DNA of 23,801 bases from an uncultured Lachnospiraceae bacterium (lineage in GTDB: Bacteria; Bacillota_A; Clostridia; Lachnospirales; Lachnospiraceae): contig USDU01000009.1 of the NCBI GenBank assembly GCA_900553635.1, positions 1-23,801 of the forward strand, read 5' to 3'. Of the stretch, positions 6,748 to 20,652 are shown piece by piece. Each line of letters starts with the position of its first letter. The first letter of the stretch is position 1. Position numbers and translations under genes: made by a program. Under the pieces are notes generated by a model, which searched no databases, had not been told where the DNA came from, and was given only the letters and a program-made list of their open reading frames with translations.

Positions 6748-6776
6748 TATGTCTATCTTTGTCGTTTCTTGTCGGA
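6748..6776 (+). promoter_or_regulatory. 10-bp-phased TGTC repeats, possible tandem 0A-like boxes
   Basis: TGTC occurs at 6750, 6760 and 6770, so three copies are exactly one helical turn apart. The last two are TTTGTCG and CTTGTCG, close to the first part of the Spo0A box consensus TTTGTCRAA. Tandem 0A boxes about 10 bp apart are known for Spo0A targets. The tract is about 110 bases upstream of a gene for a Spo0A-type DNA-binding domain and about 70 bases upstream of the glyA -35, so it could act on either gene. Functional assignment is inference. Confidence 0.4.
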
Positions 6777-6882: not shown

Positions 6883-7239
6883 ATGAAACAAACAATCCAG
6901 ATTCTGCTGAACTCGGCCGGTGTGTTCAGCCACTACTGCGGATACCGCTATTTTATCCGCGCTGTGGAACTTGCTGTTCAGGATCCCACCCGTCTCCAGT
7001 ATATTCAGAAGGCTATCTATGTCACCGTAGCCTTTGAATATGCCACCACTGTAACCAGTGTGGAGCGGGACATTCGAACCATCCGCGATGTGATGATGAG
7101 GAATGGCGGCCATCAGCTTCTCGTCCGAATGACCGGCAGTCCGGTCTGGTCCGACAAAACGCCCTATCCGAAGGATCTGATTGCCATCTTCTGCGAGTAC
7201 CTGCTTCACAGGAAAGAAACACTCCCGATGGCACAGTAG
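6883..7239 (+). CDS. Stand-alone Spo0A C-terminal-domain DNA-binding protein (first copy)
   Basis: This 118-residue protein is made almost wholly of a Spo0A_C-like domain, the winged/helix-turn-helix DNA-binding half of the sporulation master regulator. Key features are GYRYFIRAV (20-28), the IYVTVAFEY helix (45-53) and SVERDIRTIRDV (59-70), which aligns with the recognition helix pattern SRVERAIRHAIEV of true Spo0A. No phosphoacceptor receiver domain precedes it, so it cannot be switched by the usual phosphorelay. The ATG at 6883 was chosen because GGGGAG lies eight bases before it and family similarity begins there. A second copy lies at 8973-9311. It converges with the Wzz-type gene and shares a terminator with it. 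Targets are unknown. Confidence 0.8.
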   Translation: MKQTIQILLNSAGVFSHYCGYRYFIRAVELAVQDPTRLQYIQKAIYVTVAFEYATTVTSVERDIRTIRDVMMRNGGHQLLVRMTGSPVWSDKTPYPKDLIAIFCEYLLHRKETLPMAQ

Positions 7240-7261
7240 CTATACCGGGAAGAACAGAAAA

Positions 7262-7290
7262 AGCCCGGCAGCCTTTCAGGCCGCCGGGCT
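7262..7290. terminator. Bidirectional terminator between Spo0A_C copy 1 and the Wzz-type gene
   Basis: AGCCCGGC (7262-7269) pairs with GCCGGGCT (7283-7290); inside, GCCT (7271-7274) pairs with AGGC (7278-7281). The plus strand continues CTTTCTATGTTTTT and the minus strand TTTTTC, so it can end transcripts from both convergent genes. Stops lie at 7239 (plus) and 7303 (minus). Confidence 0.88.
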
Positions 7291-7302
7291 CTTTCTATGT
7301 TT

Positions 7303-8772
7303 TTACAAAATCACTGTGCCAAGGATTCTGACGTCTCTGTCTGCCGCCAGCGCACGCTCTTTTTTTATCATTTTACTGTAGGATACTCCCTGTTTCTCCA
7401 CAAACAGGATTCCCTCGTATTCATTCAGTTCCTCCAGCGCAGCTGCTTGGAAAACGATGCGCTCATAGGATGAAAGGGTAAGATCGCCCAGCTCCCGGAC
7501 AAGCTCTGCCCGAAAGGCTTCCGCTTCTTCCTTCGCAATGGTTCCCGCAAGCATGATTTTCTTCACACCCGTATCTCTGGCTGCCGCCTTCAGATTGGAC
7601 GCCGCAATCTTTACCTGCTCCTCGTAGGTAATATCCGCATACGCGCCTTCCTGTAAATGTACCAGCCAGCTGTCGATAAAGCTGAACAGACGCTTTTTGC
7701 CATTCTTTTTGGTAACCTGACCCAGAAGCGGCATATCAAATTCTTCCCGGAAATCGTCAATTCCTTCCAGCTTTCCGCTCATCAGATACAGAACCACCAG
7801 GACAAAGGCTGCCAGGAACGCTCCCAGTACCAGACCCACAACAGCGTACTTGACTGCTCCGCTGACCGGATTGTCATAGACTACTTCTTCGCCTACCACA
7901 ATGGTTTCGCCCTCGTCATTTTTCACATTTTTCAAATCGGTCTGCATAGACTTAAACTGCGAATACAGCGTGCTGTATGTATTCAGAATACCGGTCTGAT
8001 AATCCTGTACGCTCTGATTTACACATTCCGTCCGGGAAGAAGAAAGCAGCTCCAGAGAATGGGCTCCCATCTTTCCCTGCACCTCCCGGGCATATGCGCG
8101 AAACGCCGCTTCCGCAGCTTCTGTATAGGCCTCACATCTTTCCGCTGTGTCTGCCCCAATCTGAACCCGGAAAATTGCCAACTCATTCTGCGTGTCGCCT
8201 GTCACATATACTACAGACGTCTTATCGGAAGCAGTCTGCATCGTATTGGACGACTCCACGTTAAAGCTAATCAGATACTGCAGCTCTGATTTTTCAATAC
8301 TGTCGTCTGCCTGAAGCAGCGCGTCAGCCAGTCTTCCATCCTCTGTGAAGGTCTTATAGACCGCCAGCAGATTCACGCGCTCAGACTCGCTCATTCCATC
8401 GGTATTGATATAGTAGCTTAAAATTCCCGTATTCAGATGATAAGCGTCCAGTCCCATCACAACAGAGCTGTCAATGTATTCCTTCATGGTTTCCAGCGTC
8501 TGCTGCGTATTGTCTACAGCCAACTGGCCATATTCCACATTGGGATTGGTAATGACGCCTTTTTCCTGGGTTTCTTCCTTTTTATCATCTCCCAGCGCCT
8601 CTGCTTCTTTCTTCAGTACGTTCCCCTTCACGGTAGCCTGGTACTTATAACCGCCGGCCAGCACTGCCAGAATCAGCATGGAAGCTACGATCCAACGCCA
8701 TTTTTTCAGGCAGTAAAACATAAGGTCCATCAGGCTGATTTCTTTTTCGTAAGTCTCCTGATACTCGTTCAT
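7303..8772 (-). CDS. Wzz/CapA-type polysaccharide co-polymerase with degenerate kinase-like tail
   Basis: This 489-residue membrane protein resembles chain-length regulators (Wzz, CapA, EpsA) that control surface-polysaccharide assembly and activate bacterial tyrosine kinases. Two membrane segments (about 27-43 and 305-331) bracket a large outside region, followed by a linker with the family signature FDMPLLGQV (345-353). The cytoplasmic tail (about 385-489) follows the fold order of a BY-kinase: KIAASNLKAA, a beta strand KKIMLAGTI (404-412), and a closing ILFVEKQGVS...RILGTVIL, but there is no Walker A glycine-lysine loop, no Walker A' or B aspartates and no Tyr-rich C-terminus. It is therefore probably a pseudokinase fusion. 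No polymerase, flippase or glycosyltransferase genes are adjacent, so it is an orphan flanked by two Spo0A_C genes. Confidence 0.8.
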   Translation of the reverse strand: MNEYQETYEKEISLMDLMFYCLKKWRWIVASMLILAVLAGGYKYQATVKGNVLKKEAEALGDDKKEETQEKGVITNPNVEYGQLAVDNTQQTLETMKEYIDSSVVMGLDAYHLNTGILSYYINTDGMSESERVNLLAVYKTFTEDGRLADALLQADDSIEKSELQYLISFNVESSNTMQTASDKTSVVYVTGDTQNELAIFRVQIGADTAERCEAYTEAAEAAFRAYAREVQGKMGAHSLELLSSSRTECVNQSVQDYQTGILNTYSTLYSQFKSMQTDLKNVKNDEGETIVVGEEVVYDNPVSGAVKYAVVGLVLGAFLAAFVLVVLYLMSGKLEGIDDFREEFDMPLLGQVTKKNGKKRLFSFIDSWLVHLQEGAYADITYEEQVKIAASNLKAAARDTGVKKIMLAGTIAKEEAEAFRAELVRELGDLTLSSYERIVFQAAALEELNEYEGILFVEKQGVSYSKMIKKERALAADRDVRILGTVIL

Positions 8773-8833
8773 ATCTGTTTCTTCCTCCTGTTTCTATTTT
8801 TACTTTCTGTCCTTTTTTTCACATAGATAATTT

Positions 8834-8862
8834 ATTATATAACATCTCTCTCCAAATAGCAA
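8834..8862 (-). promoter_or_regulatory. SigA-type promoter of the Wzz-type gene
   Basis: On the minus strand TTGCTA (opposite 8857-8862) and TATAAT (opposite 8834-8839) are 17 bases apart. The start codon is about 60 bases downstream with AGGAGG before it. A single TTTGTC match on the plus strand (8873-8878) lies 10 bases upstream of the -35; its meaning is unclear. Confidence 0.8.
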
Positions 8863-8972
8863 TTCCTGATTTTTTGTCTGTTTTTTCCTTTTCCAATCGT
8901 ATTTTTTAATATTTACTCATAACTGTTCCGTACCAGAATCGTTACATTTACTCTTACAAAGGAGGAATTTTC

Positions 8973-9311
8973 GTGAGACAATCTGCATTATACTCTCTGC
9001 TACAGCTGGCAGGCCTCCGCGCGCAGTATCTTGGATACGCTTATTTCGCTGACGCAGTTCTTCTGGCTTCAGAGGATCTGACGCGGCTTCAAAATCTCCG
9101 CCGTGATATTTATCTCCCTGTGGCGGCAAAATATCATGTCAGTTGCTCCAGCGTCGAGCGGGATATCCGCACGGCCAGGGACGTGATTTTCCGTCATCAG
9201 AATTTTGAAGTGTTCCGGACCCTCGGCGTCTATCCGCTCTGGAAAAATGCACAGCCCTATCCCCGCGAATGCATTGCCGCCTTTGCCGACTATCTCGCCC
9301 GGCTTTCTTGA
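8973..9311 (+). CDS. Stand-alone Spo0A C-terminal-domain DNA-binding protein (second copy)
   Basis: This 112-residue paralogue of the protein at 6883-7239 has about 45 identical residues over about 102 aligned by eye, including GYAYFADAV, DLTRLQ, SVERDIRTARDV (60-71) and the C-terminal W...PYP...IA.F..YL pattern. It is again only the Spo0A_C-like DNA-binding domain, without a receiver. Translation starts at GTG (8973), supported by a near-perfect AAAGGAGG (8958-8965) seven bases before. The gene is divergent from the Wzz-type gene across a 200-base AT-rich region. No convincing SigA promoter was found on its side, so it may need another sigma factor or an activator. The promoter of the following gene overlaps its stop codon. 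Confidence 0.8.
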   Translation: MRQSALYSLLQLAGLRAQYLGYAYFADAVLLASEDLTRLQNLRRDIYLPVAAKYHVSCSSVERDIRTARDVIFRHQNFEVFRTLGVYPLWKNAQPYPRECIAAFADYLARLS

Positions 9312-9370: not shown

Positions 9371-10288
9371 ATGCCGCAGAACCGCTTCCGTTCCCTGAAC
9401 ACTGCCCTTCAGGAGCGCTTTGGAGAGAAAATCTATAGGCTGTCCCTGAACGGCGGCTGTACCTGTCCCAACCGGGACGGGACCCTGGGAACCAGAGGCT
9501 GCATCTTCTGCAGCGCCGGTGGTTCCGGGGATTTTGCCTCCAGCCCTGCCCTTTCGATAACGGAGCAGATCGAGGACGCGAAAAAGCGCCTGGCCGGGAA
9601 ACGCCCGGTACAGCGCTACATTGCCTATTTTCAGGCTTACACCAACACCTACGCTCCCATAGAACATCTGCGGATGATTTTCACAGAGGCCATCACCCAC
9701 CCGGATGTGGCTGTACTCTCTGTCGCCACCCGCCCGGACTGTCTGGGACCGGACGTGCTGGAACTGCTCTATGATCTGAATCAGATAAAACCGGTCTGGG
9801 TGGAACTTGGACTGCAGACTATTCACGAGGAGACCGCATCCCTTATCCGGCGCGGTTACCCGCTTCCTGTCTTTGACGAAGCCATGGAGCATCTGAAGGC
9901 CATCGGCGTCGAAACCGTCGTACACACCATCCTGGGACTGCCCGGCGAAACGCCGGACATGATTCTGGATACGGTGCGTTATATCAATACATCCGGCGCA
10001 GACGGAATTAAACTGCAGCTCCTTCACATTCTAAAGGACACGGATCTGGCCGCTTATTATCAGGATGCCGGCTTTCACGTACTGACCCTGGATGAATATG
10101 TGGATCTGGTCATCCGCTGCCTGGAGATCTCCCGCCCGGATCTGGTGATTCACCGTCTGACCGGCGACGGACCGAAGGATTTGCTTATCGCGCCCCTCTG
10201 GAGTCAGGCCAAGCGGCAGGTGCTGAATACGATTCACAGGGAGCTCAAAAACCGGGATACTTATCAGGGACGGCTTTATACACCCTGA
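9371..10288 (+). CDS. TIGR01212-type (YhcC-like) radical SAM protein
   Basis: This 305-residue protein belongs to the radical SAM group related to YhcC. The N-terminus has the family phrase NGGCTCPNRDGTLGTRGC with CIFC; Cys32, Cys44 and Cys47 are the likely ligands of the [4Fe-4S] cluster that cleaves S-adenosylmethionine. Downstream are the barrel phrases YFQAYTNTYAP, VATRPDCL, VELGLQT and HTILGLPGETPDM, typical of the Elp3/MiaB-like radical SAM fold. The biochemical substrate of YhcC-type proteins is not well established; a role in RNA modification or anaerobic metabolism would be a guess. AAGGAG precedes the ATG. It forms a two-gene unit with the DUF4364 gene 29 bases downstream. Confidence 0.9.
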   Translation: MPQNRFRSLNTALQERFGEKIYRLSLNGGCTCPNRDGTLGTRGCIFCSAGGSGDFASSPALSITEQIEDAKKRLAGKRPVQRYIAYFQAYTNTYAPIEHLRMIFTEAITHPDVAVLSVATRPDCLGPDVLELLYDLNQIKPVWVELGLQTIHEETASLIRRGYPLPVFDEAMEHLKAIGVETVVHTILGLPGETPDMILDTVRYINTSGADGIKLQLLHILKDTDLAAYYQDAGFHVLTLDEYVDLVIRCLEISRPDLVIHRLTGDGPKDLLIAPLWSQAKRQVLNTIHRELKNRDTYQGRLYTP

Positions 10289-10317: not shown

Positions 10318-10830
10318 ATGTCAGACACTTTGACCTTATACAAATTGATTCTTCTCCATATTCTGGACAAGGTAAGCTTCCCCATGAGCAACGGACAGCT
10401 TTCCGAATTTATGCTGGACAAGGAATATACTGATTATTTCACCGTGCAGACTGCCCTGTCAGAGCTGGTGGAAGCGCATTTTATCCATATGAAGACCGTC
10501 CGCAATACTTCTCTCTATTCCATCACCGATGAGGGATGTAAAACGTTGGAATTTTTTGGCAAAAAAATCTCTTCCCAGATACAGGAGGAGATTGCGGATT
10601 ATCTGAAAGAACACAATTATGAACTGCGCAATGAGCTCTCTGTTCCGGCTGATTATTACCCCACCGGAAATGGCGAATATGCCGCCCGCTGCCGGGTTCT
10701 GGAAAAAGGCTCTGCTATCATCGATCTGACCCTCACTGTGCCAACAAAGGAACAGGCCGAATCCATCTGCGCCCACTGGAGCACCAAAAGCCAGCAGATG
10801 TACGCGTATCTGATGCAAAATCTTCTGTAA
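10318..10830 (+). CDS. DUF4364 family protein, probable winged-helix
   Basis: This 170-residue protein matches DUF4364, a family common in Clostridia. The first 90 residues read as a winged helix-turn-helix (LYKLILLHILDKVSFPMSNGQLSEFM, given here in outline, then a recognition-like helix VQTALSELVEAHFI and wing YSITDEGCKTLEFF), as in PadR or MarR-like regulators. The C-terminal half is an alpha/beta region of unknown function. It follows the radical SAM gene by 29 bases and is probably cotranscribed, which could make it that gene's regulator, though DNA binding is inferred only from the helical pattern. A terminator follows directly. Confidence 0.8.
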   Translation: MSDTLTLYKLILLHILDKVSFPMSNGQLSEFMLDKEYTDYFTVQTALSELVEAHFIHMKTVRNTSLYSITDEGCKTLEFFGKKISSQIQEEIADYLKEHNYELRNELSVPADYYPTGNGEYAARCRVLEKGSAIIDLTLTVPTKEQAESICAHWSTKSQQMYAYLMQNLL

Positions 10831-20213: not shown

Positions 20214-20247
20214 AATGCCATCTTTTCGGAACACAAGGAGAAACGCA

Positions 20248-20652
20248 ATGTCGGAATCTTATCTGGCTGATAATCTTCGCAGCCTGCGCGAAGCTAAAAA
20301 GTATTCCCAGAAATATATCAGTGAACAGCTTCATATTGCACGGCAGACCTACACTGTTTATGAAAGCGGCAACCGTGTCCCGGATATCAGCCTTATCTGT
20401 AAGCTGGCCGATATTTACGACGTTTCTCTGGATCAACTGGTACTGACGGATCTGTCGGCCCACTCGGATATTATCGCCGACGGAACCGAGCCCCGCCACT
20501 ACGCGGCCGTCCCCAACAAGAGTCTGATTCCCTTAAGCGGCGCCAACGCCAAGTCCATCATGGATTTCTTAAGCTTTCCGGAGGAGACGCAGTTGGAGAT
20601 ACGGGAGTATATCCGGTTTAAGAAGTATTTGTTGGCGAAGGAGCAGAAATAA
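20248..20652 (+). CDS. XRE-family helix-turn-helix regulator
   Basis: This 134-residue protein has a Cro/CI-type DNA-binding domain at about 6-65: LRSLREAKKYSQKYISEQL, ARQTYTVYESGNRVPD (recognition helix and turn) and LADIYDVSLDQLV. The C-terminal half (about 75-134) is a short helical region ending LEIREYIRFKKYLLAKEQK, of unknown function, with no peptidase or sensory motif. A frame open from 20215 has no ribosome site; AAGGAG lies just before the ATG at 20248, so that start was chosen. It is a monocistronic unit ended by the 20702-20753 terminator. Targets unknown. Confidence 0.9.
   Translation: MSESYLADNLRSLREAKKYSQKYISEQLHIARQTYTVYESGNRVPDISLICKLADIYDVSLDQLVLTDLSAHSDIIADGTEPRHYAAVPNKSLIPLSGANAKSIMDFLSFPEETQLEIREYIRFKKYLLAKEQK

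Follow-up and report, generated by a model that had tools for sequence, protein, structure and literature searches.

Receiver-less Spo0A_C proteins and candidate tandem 0A-like boxes at an orphan Wzz-type locus of an uncultured Lachnospiraceae bacterium

Spo0A is commonly regarded as a single master regulator. Its DNA-binding domain, Spo0A_C (PF08769), is used to tell Spo0A from other response regulators, according to the available part of PMC6136694. In the matched text of PMC3485338, the 0A core TGTCGAA is contacted at G2, C4 and G5, and the isolated DNA-binding domain binds DNA. PMC6907783 (available extract) describes PF08769 as over-represented in the mobile elements of gut Firmicutes, which fits genes that change place, and the matched portion of PMC10663231 names the domain in a list, whilst loaP genes often adjoin secondary-metabolite or polysaccharide operons (PMC12691694, matched portion). 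Among the open-access papers matched, none that mentions LoaP also mentions Spo0A, and no open-access paper on receiver-less Spo0A_C proteins was found by title or abstract start, subscription papers lying outside this scope. Two such proteins, copies A and B, are encoded in the window analysed here (i.e. the whole stretch of 23,801 nucleotides from an uncultured Lachnospiraceae bacterium, positions 1 to 23,801 of contig USDU01000009.1, assembly GCA_900553635.1), where they flank an orphan gene for a Wzz-type polysaccharide co-polymerase. What appears to be new here is that many receiver-less Spo0A_C genes have, upstream, direct TGTC repeats with a period of 10 base pairs (bp), which have the look of tandem 0A-like boxes. 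We consider it probable, on the strength of sequence comparison, that A and B are receiver-free Spo0A paralogues and that genes of this kind are controlled through 0A-type arrays by their own product, by Spo0A or by both.

Domain, fold and relatives of copies A and B

Copy A (6883–7239, plus strand) encodes a single-domain Spo0A_C protein of 118 residues, and copy B (8973–9311, plus strand, GTG start) one of 112 residues. One Spo0A_C domain takes up almost the entire length of each protein, and PF08769 is matched at 73.6 bits (1.5e-20) and 66 bits (3.3e-18), respectively, with a cut-off of 25, whereas against the Spo0A equivalog TIGR02875 they reach 44.5 and 46.4 bits versus a cut-off of 200, the C-terminal part of that model alone being matched. 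Neither protein holds a receiver with a phosphoacceptor aspartate. A sequence search of the PDB with A and B (E up to 1) matches only the Spo0A chains 1fc3 and 1lq1, and the AlphaFold model of A (predicted local distance difference test score, pLDDT, of 93) adopts the helical fold of the Spo0A effector domain, with a template modelling (TM) score of 0.81 to 1fc3 and a best value of 0.81 to 1lq1, at 25–29% identity between A and the solved Spo0A domains. Two paralogous Spo0A_C-only, receiver-less proteins around an orphan Wzz-type gene, A convergent with it and B divergent from it, had been proposed in an earlier note made from the sequence alone, and this arrangement is confirmed, as is the domain by the very profile search and, for A, the structure prediction that the note had put forward. 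The SVERDIRT motif named there is present in both proteins. Their similarity is also of the level given (44%), although the alignment yields 47 identical residues of 108 and not the 45 of 102 counted earlier.

Proteins of this kind form a widespread paralogous family that extends well beyond the window. A protein search returned 17 sequences related to A and 10 related to B, fragments included, with close homologues in other assemblies at 97% (A) and 98% (B) identity, and 22 loci came from a single scan of genome contigs (loci and genomes carry our L and G numbers in what follows). In the genus of G001, all 16 genomes encode a full-length Spo0A and, besides it, two or more Spo0A_C matches, some of which are weak. 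Across 150 sampled genomes of the family Lachnospiraceae, a Spo0A_C match occurs in 104 and two or more in 58, some of the extra matches being second full-length Spo0A genes. Several diverged Spo0A_C paralogues are found per genome. Two of 11 genomes (G005 and G007), drafts that may be incomplete, have Spo0A_C-only proteins but no full-length Spo0A match.

The two copies belong to different branches of this family. In a tree of 82 sequences, which included 12 of the 27 database homologues and left out the short fragments L012 partial and L094, A groups with L001–L009 and others (support 99/98), and B groups with L095 (An131) and L099 (Merdisoma), which are copies at the same site beside the MnmL gene (support 97/90); the tree has few columns, open forks and long branches, and the placement of B is the weaker one, L095 and L099 both being long branches. 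Since the raw identity of B does not separate its relatives (43.8% to L095, 44.5% to L010, 43.5% to A), this placement is based on the tree and on position. Copy A shares 74% identity with L001 of An131 but 44% with B and sits in a clade of its own, and both An131 and Merdisoma carry, on different contigs, members of the A clade and of the clade to which B belongs; A did not, then, arise recently from B by local copying. The local duplication suggested by the earlier note, considered here as a recent event, is rejected on the same identities and tree.

Further members were seen at the margins of the family. Another Spo0A_C-only clade (L077–L083, from seven genomes) lies mostly beside a lysA-like gene, as judged by reading the neighbours, and carries TGTC arrays in 7/7 cases at no more than one mismatch. 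L084 (G161:C30, 9046–9888) encodes a protein of 280 residues that combines an N-terminus of receiver-like appearance (by eye) with a strongly diverged Spo0A_C domain, and is a second such response regulator besides Spo0A. Weak Spo0A_C matches of 23–28 bits in frames of 143–174 residues (G003:C21, G004:C1, G167:C93, G168:C108, G169:C232, G170:C8 and G171:C89) may represent a very diverged member in these seven related genomes.

Tandem TGTC arrays and promoter geometry

The motif set comprised those 40 of 72 unique sequences that scored at least 90 with a model built in the analysis. In this set, a same-strand direct repeat of TGTC with a 10-bp period and at most one mismatch stands in 22 of the 40 upstream regions versus 36 of 643 controls (p 2e-15), and the exact repeat in 15 of 40 versus 2 of 643 (p 2e-18), the controls being upstreams of greedily chosen long open reading frames, some of which are perhaps not genes. 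Dinucleotide shuffles give means of 1.95 and 0.055 per 40 regions, respectively. On the strand of the gene the count peaks at spacing 10 (22 regions, with 1–16 at other spacings), and the reverse strand has 2. Copies held out from motif finding, from which sequences with fewer than 150 bases upstream were skipped, also show the repeat, in 13/33 with at most one mismatch (p 6e-8) and in 5/33 exactly (p 4e-6); after they were collapsed by hand into orthologue groups, 5/23 remain (p 0.01). The same arrangement precedes spo0A itself, with a same-strand tandem pair at 12 of 16 loci from 15 related genomes that is a triple in 11 of the 12. Many members of the family would therefore seem to carry tandem 0A-like boxes like those at spo0A. 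As to the earlier suggestion that A and B share or compete for Spo0A boxes, sharing is made plausible by such boxes before many family genes and before spo0A.

Upstream of copy A, three TGTC half-boxes at 6750, 6760 and 6770 (6750–6773, plus strand as A, 133 to 113 bp before its start) form a tandem 0A-like array with a 10-bp period, which keeps G2 and C4 of TGTCGAA and is arranged as in the spo0A upstreams of relatives. By itself this array, with two overlapping matches where 0.5 would be expected, exceeds chance only modestly, two or more matches arising in 10 of 100 shuffles, so that its weight comes from the relatives: a TGTC pair precedes all eight of L001–L008 (7 exact, 1 with one mismatch), and among the closest clade-A members for which DNA was available, the window counted, 9/9 have an array with the gene, across several settings. 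The promoter geometry of this clade is equally regular, with the second half-box 43–44 bp upstream of a perfect TATAAT and a poor −35 in 8/8 (L001–L008). In the L013 clade the distance from box to TATAAT is 34 bp in 4/4, one helical turn shorter, and in other copies a fixed distance was not seen. The combination of a phased array and a −10 element with a poor −35 in these two clades points to activation.

The patterns were derived from these promoters and match them by construction, which leaves the matches elsewhere as the informative part. The exact clade-A pattern has 6 matches in 8 genomes, 6/6 of them upstream of an A-type gene; with one mismatch allowed there are 10 matches, 3 at family genes and 7 elsewhere, the reversed control giving 11. 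Five exact matches of GTCGAANNNTGTCGA occur in 16 genomes, and four of them are the four promoters of the family in G164, where the tandem boxes are exactly of the TGTCGAA type. With one mismatch the reversed control has far more matches, exact matches alone were used, and GTCGAANNNTGTCGA was rejected as a predictor of a regulon. The inverted TACGA-N15-TCGTA element that precedes copies of the L010 clade, searched in 8 genomes, lies at family genes in 5/5 matches at up to two mismatches and in 4/8 at three (reversed control, 2). The clade-specific patterns have few other matches in the genomes of the relatives. The fifth GTCGAANNNTGTCGA match precedes a helix-turn-helix (HTH) gene resembling that at 20215–20652 of the window. 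A counterpart of the same window gene, of XRE type, was seen to have a triple array with a 10-bp period (two GTCGAA, one GTCGC) upstream of it (L194, G163:C64 near 67535), and no exact TGTC-N6-TGTC match precedes 20215–20652 in the window.

Who would occupy these boxes may be judged from the same data. The genes could be plain targets of phosphorylated Spo0A (Spo0A~P), which would bind the arrays and switch the genes on at the onset of sporulation, with products that act elsewhere and not on their own promoters. The 10-bp tandem arrays at 12/16 spo0A loci, the exact TGTCGAA-type boxes of G164 and a SASP spore-protein gene encoded within the window are consistent with this. However, the recognition helix SRVERAIRHAIEVAW is constant in 13 Spo0A rows, yet the operators of the family vary by clade, and G005 and G007, if their drafts are complete, hold these proteins with no full-length Spo0A match; we regard a role as plain targets as a serious possibility that we nonetheless lean against. 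Control by the own proteins of the family is favoured because the operator changes with the clade while the Spo0A helix does not, and a say for Spo0A is favoured because the arrays resemble the spo0A promoter.

A and B could also be decoys that occupy 0A boxes genome-wide without activating and so delay sporulation. They have the fold of Spo0A and share its core half-box, and the alignments show that their segment after the recognition helix is unlike that of Spo0A, whose sigma-contacting region is located there. This role is improbable, as the clade-specific patterns rarely match away from family genes, the phasing to the −10 element suggests activation, and the presence of several diverged paralogues in one genome speaks for private targets, not global ones.

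The MnmL locus and the link to polysaccharide genes

The gene between the two copies (7303–8772, minus strand) encodes a Wzz-like protein of 489 residues that scores 14.1 bits against PF02706, under the cut-off of 25.5. Its identity as Wzz-like is drawn from homologues that sit in the polysaccharide operons of relatives, namely within exopolysaccharide (EPS) operons in L010, L085, L089, L091, L092 and L099; it is 47, 55 and 58% identical to the same-site Wzz genes of L010, L095 and L099. In its C-terminal third, some 120 residues after the second membrane segment have a degenerate CpsD/Wzc-type look by eye, with no match above threshold. Copy B is followed by two conserved neighbours that served as anchors, i.e. 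the gene for the radical SAM tRNA-modification enzyme MnmL/YtqA (9371–10288, plus strand; TIGR01212 318.8 bits, cut-off 180) and that for a DUF4364 protein (10318–10830, plus strand; PF14277 200.7 bits). The comparison around these anchors covered 18 loci, seven of which had been pre-selected for holding a Spo0A_C gene and ten of which came from a genome search that matched 11 of 12 genomes (G161, omitted there, is covered by L088).

Wzz lies on the far side of MnmL in 13 of the 18 loci, window included, and a Spo0A_C gene stands between Wzz and MnmL in eight of these (the window, L010, L085, L089, L091, L092, L095 and L099), a biased rate since all but the window were chosen for holding the gene. 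CapD is present in seven of the eight, and a LoaP match in six, i.e. all but the window and L095. In the three of these six that were scored, LoaP (NF033641) exceeds its cut-off of 125, namely in L010 (172.2), L085 (174.8) and L092 (168.3); LoaP-like proteins of L086 (107.4) and L090 (106.4) fall below it, and tblastn finds no LoaP match in the window. The Spo0A_C gene is absent from five of the 13 loci, namely L222 and L223, which have CapD-Wzz, and L219–L221, which have Wzz alone, share the GlyA and exporter flank with the window as far as their contigs extend, and hold neither an A nor a B copy. The remaining L224–L228 have neither Wzz nor a Spo0A_C gene beside MnmL. From this pattern, the orphan Wzz gene is best read as the last gene of a reduced EPS operon of the CapD-Wzz-LoaP type, the B-position gene as the ancestral divergent neighbour of that operon, and the window looks like an L219-type locus in which the B gene was kept and copy A was gained. 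The MnmL-site copies of L010, L085, L089, L091 and L092 fall in clades other than that of B, so that position, and not sequence, ties them to B.

The order A-Wzz-B is found in the window only (1/13), and copy A with its array stands at this locus in the window only and elsewhere in the relatives examined. A conserved three-gene block is thereby rejected, an outcome that the earlier note had itself named as speaking against its proposal. We put it just short of an even chance that the block is a matter of coincidence, that is, a decayed EPS operon with an inserted copy A, in which A, Wzz and B have no functional connection today. The absence of A-Wzz-B from all 12 other MnmL loci with Wzz, the sister loci L219–L221 with the GlyA flank and neither copy, and the enrichment of PF08769 in mobile elements of gut Firmicutes (available extract of PMC6907783) are in keeping with coincidence. 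On the other side, the reading frames of A, Wzz and B are all intact, of the five relatives with no Spo0A_C gene, four have a full-length Wzz frame and the fifth is cut by a contig end, and A and B have homologues elsewhere at 97 and 98% identity.

Between Wzz and B, the Wzz side carries a sigma-A-like promoter (8834–8862, minus strand; TTGCTA, 17 bp, TATAAT), and the B side the elements TTTTGTC and ATCGTAT (8872–8902, plus strand), a candidate B operator. A sigma-A-like promoter with 10 or 11 of 12 matches occurs on the Wzz/CapD side in 12/12 regions scanned, window included. In 4/4 scanned loci that have no Spo0A_C gene (L219, L220, L222 and L223) the MnmL promoter is a perfect TTGACA-17-TATAAT, and in the eight loci with the gene, the region upstream of it reaches 9–10 of 12 at best, the stretch from the Spo0A_C gene to MnmL lying outside the scan. 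The TCGTAT element is common upstream of MnmL-site copies and absent from the intergenic region in 5/5 loci that have no Spo0A_C gene, which indicates that the element travels with the gene.

These data also bear on a role of B (and A) as dedicated regulators that mainly target the divergent promoter of the adjoining surface-polysaccharide gene. This role would agree with the divergent placement of a Spo0A_C gene and CapD/Wzz at 8/13 MnmL loci with Wzz, subject to the selection bias given above, with copies that head two other EPS operons in G164, which encode a LoaP-like protein below the LoaP cut-off, and with the proximity of 10 of 16 non-A copies to sugar-transferase genes of family PF02397. 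Yet the element lies closer to the Spo0A_C gene and is absent where that gene is absent, the five loci that have no such gene keep Wzz, with a sigma-A-like promoter in the four scanned, and A-type copies and other clades occur in other contexts. We find the dedicated role rather unlikely. Dependence of Wzz on B is likewise disfavoured by L219–L223, which lack the B-position gene and the element, and control of Wzz by B from the shared region, although possible, would not be needed to explain the data.

The link to polysaccharide genes is real for part of the family. In the 16 genomes of the genus, 10 of 16 non-A copies of A/B type have a PF02397 gene no more than 10 kb away, compared with 0.42 expected from gene density. 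These ten genes represent eight loci, and as six of the eight share one ancestral site, the proximity corresponds to about three independent placements, which also tells against dedicated regulation. The count used 51 of 62 matches, after removal of ten rows below 34 bits, among them a truncated second copy in G006, and of the second full-length Spo0A of G002. That EPS genes are broadly enriched around Spo0A_C-only genes as a whole is not supported: a PF02397 gene is near 0/8 clade-A genes, 0/11 genes of other clades (one of which, the G161:C30 row, is the protein with a receiver-like N-terminus, L084) and 0/16 spo0A genes. PF02706 was set aside as an EPS marker, being too insensitive, with these Wzz-like genes scoring below or near its cut-off. 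In a wider sample (L140–L159) the contexts are, by reading of the neighbours, mostly unrelated to polysaccharides. The polysaccharide link thus appears to hold for one lineage group and not for the whole family. The link to surface polysaccharide drawn in the earlier note stands to the extent that part of the family occupies such loci in relatives, whereas regulation of Wzz by A or B does not follow, five relatives that lack the B-position gene having kept Wzz or CapD-Wzz. In L013, L015 and L016, two or three Spo0A_C-only genes in tandem were also seen near glycosyltransferase and flagellin genes (Pfam check for L015 only).

Elsewhere in the window, a G+C-rich hairpin whose arms were checked (7262–7290) lies between A and Wzz, where their ends converge, and is likely to be a terminator common to both. 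No tRNA genes are present in the window, and Rfam leaders or riboswitches gave 0 matches at gathering thresholds in the window and six relatives.

Proposed working and comparison with known systems

A and B would, on the reading we prefer, be members of an expanded receiver-free Spo0A paralogue family in Lachnospiraceae that binds DNA with no need of phosphorylation, by analogy with the Spo0A DNA-binding domain in isolation. Half-boxes that recur every 10 bp would be bound head-to-tail on one face of the helix, and each gene would most likely answer, through the array in front of it, to the protein it encodes, to Spo0A~P or to both, whilst a B-position gene may act on the divergent EPS operon from the shared region. 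The domain, the fold, the arrays, their phasing and the few further pattern matches are the observed components of this model; binding, activation and the identity of the binder are what we infer.

Several observations weigh against it. The tandem pair is absent from 18/40 regions of the motif set, window B included, and from 20/33 further copies, and in the held-out set spacing 10 leads narrowly, with 13 versus 12 (spacing 20) and 10 (spacing 17), the reverse strand having 6. Related sequences are not independent. In the window, the boxes of A are kept but a TATAAT at the conserved phase was not found, and upstream of B there is one TTGTC and one ATCGTAT, with no tandem TGTC pair. The L010 clade has an inverted TACGA-N15-TCGTA element in place of the tandem array. 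To these are added the zero counts of PF02397 genes near A-type and other-clade genes, and the promoter of Wzz/CapD that is kept in 4/4 scanned loci without the B-position gene, which Wzz and CapD therefore do not need.

A more far-reaching version, to which we give little credence, would have the genes as local switches that activate themselves with no need of phosphorylation, having originated as copies of the spo0A autoregulatory unit (gene and 10-bp box array) and moved between loci; in one lineage group they would head LoaP-type capsule operons and determine the choice of surface polysaccharide made by the gut Lachnospiraceae cell, in a manner tied to the decision to form spores but separable from it. 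If several Spo0A_C-only paralogues do run through spo0A-type arrays, the sporulation switch of Lachnospiraceae would have a side network, and counts of Spo0A by domain alone may mislead. The arrays offer short, defined targets for binding assays, and, with some copies associated with EPS operons, whether surface coat and sporulation state are tied can be tested directly.

Compared with Spo0A (TIGR02875), A and B share the C-terminal DNA-binding fold (TM 0.81) and the VER-x-IR recognition helix, and many members of the family the tandem 0A-type boxes, whereas they differ in the missing receiver, in scores far below the equivalog cut-off, in the several paralogues per genome and in operators that vary by clade. 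The Spo0A DNA-binding domain of C. difficile (matched text of PMC3485338) is likewise a single Spo0A_C domain, from which phosphorylation-free binding may be extended to A and B, but it is a laboratory construct, whereas A and B are natural genes, A being 25–29% identical to solved Spo0A domains. With the mobile-element PF08769 genes of PMC6907783 the family has in common that its copies occupy varied places with differing neighbours between relatives, although the enrichment, as given in the available extract, concerns the domain alone and is silent on receiver-less copies or operators. The window gene shares with Wzz-type chain-length determinants of the polysaccharide co-polymerase class (PF02706) the EPS-operon context of its relatives, and differs from them in being an orphan below the Pfam cut-off. 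Finally, the EPS operons of L010, L085 and L092 resemble described LoaP operons (NF033641; PMC12691694, matched portion) in carrying LoaP above the cut-off, and are set apart from them by the divergent, receiver-free Spo0A_C gene at the operon head in relatives.

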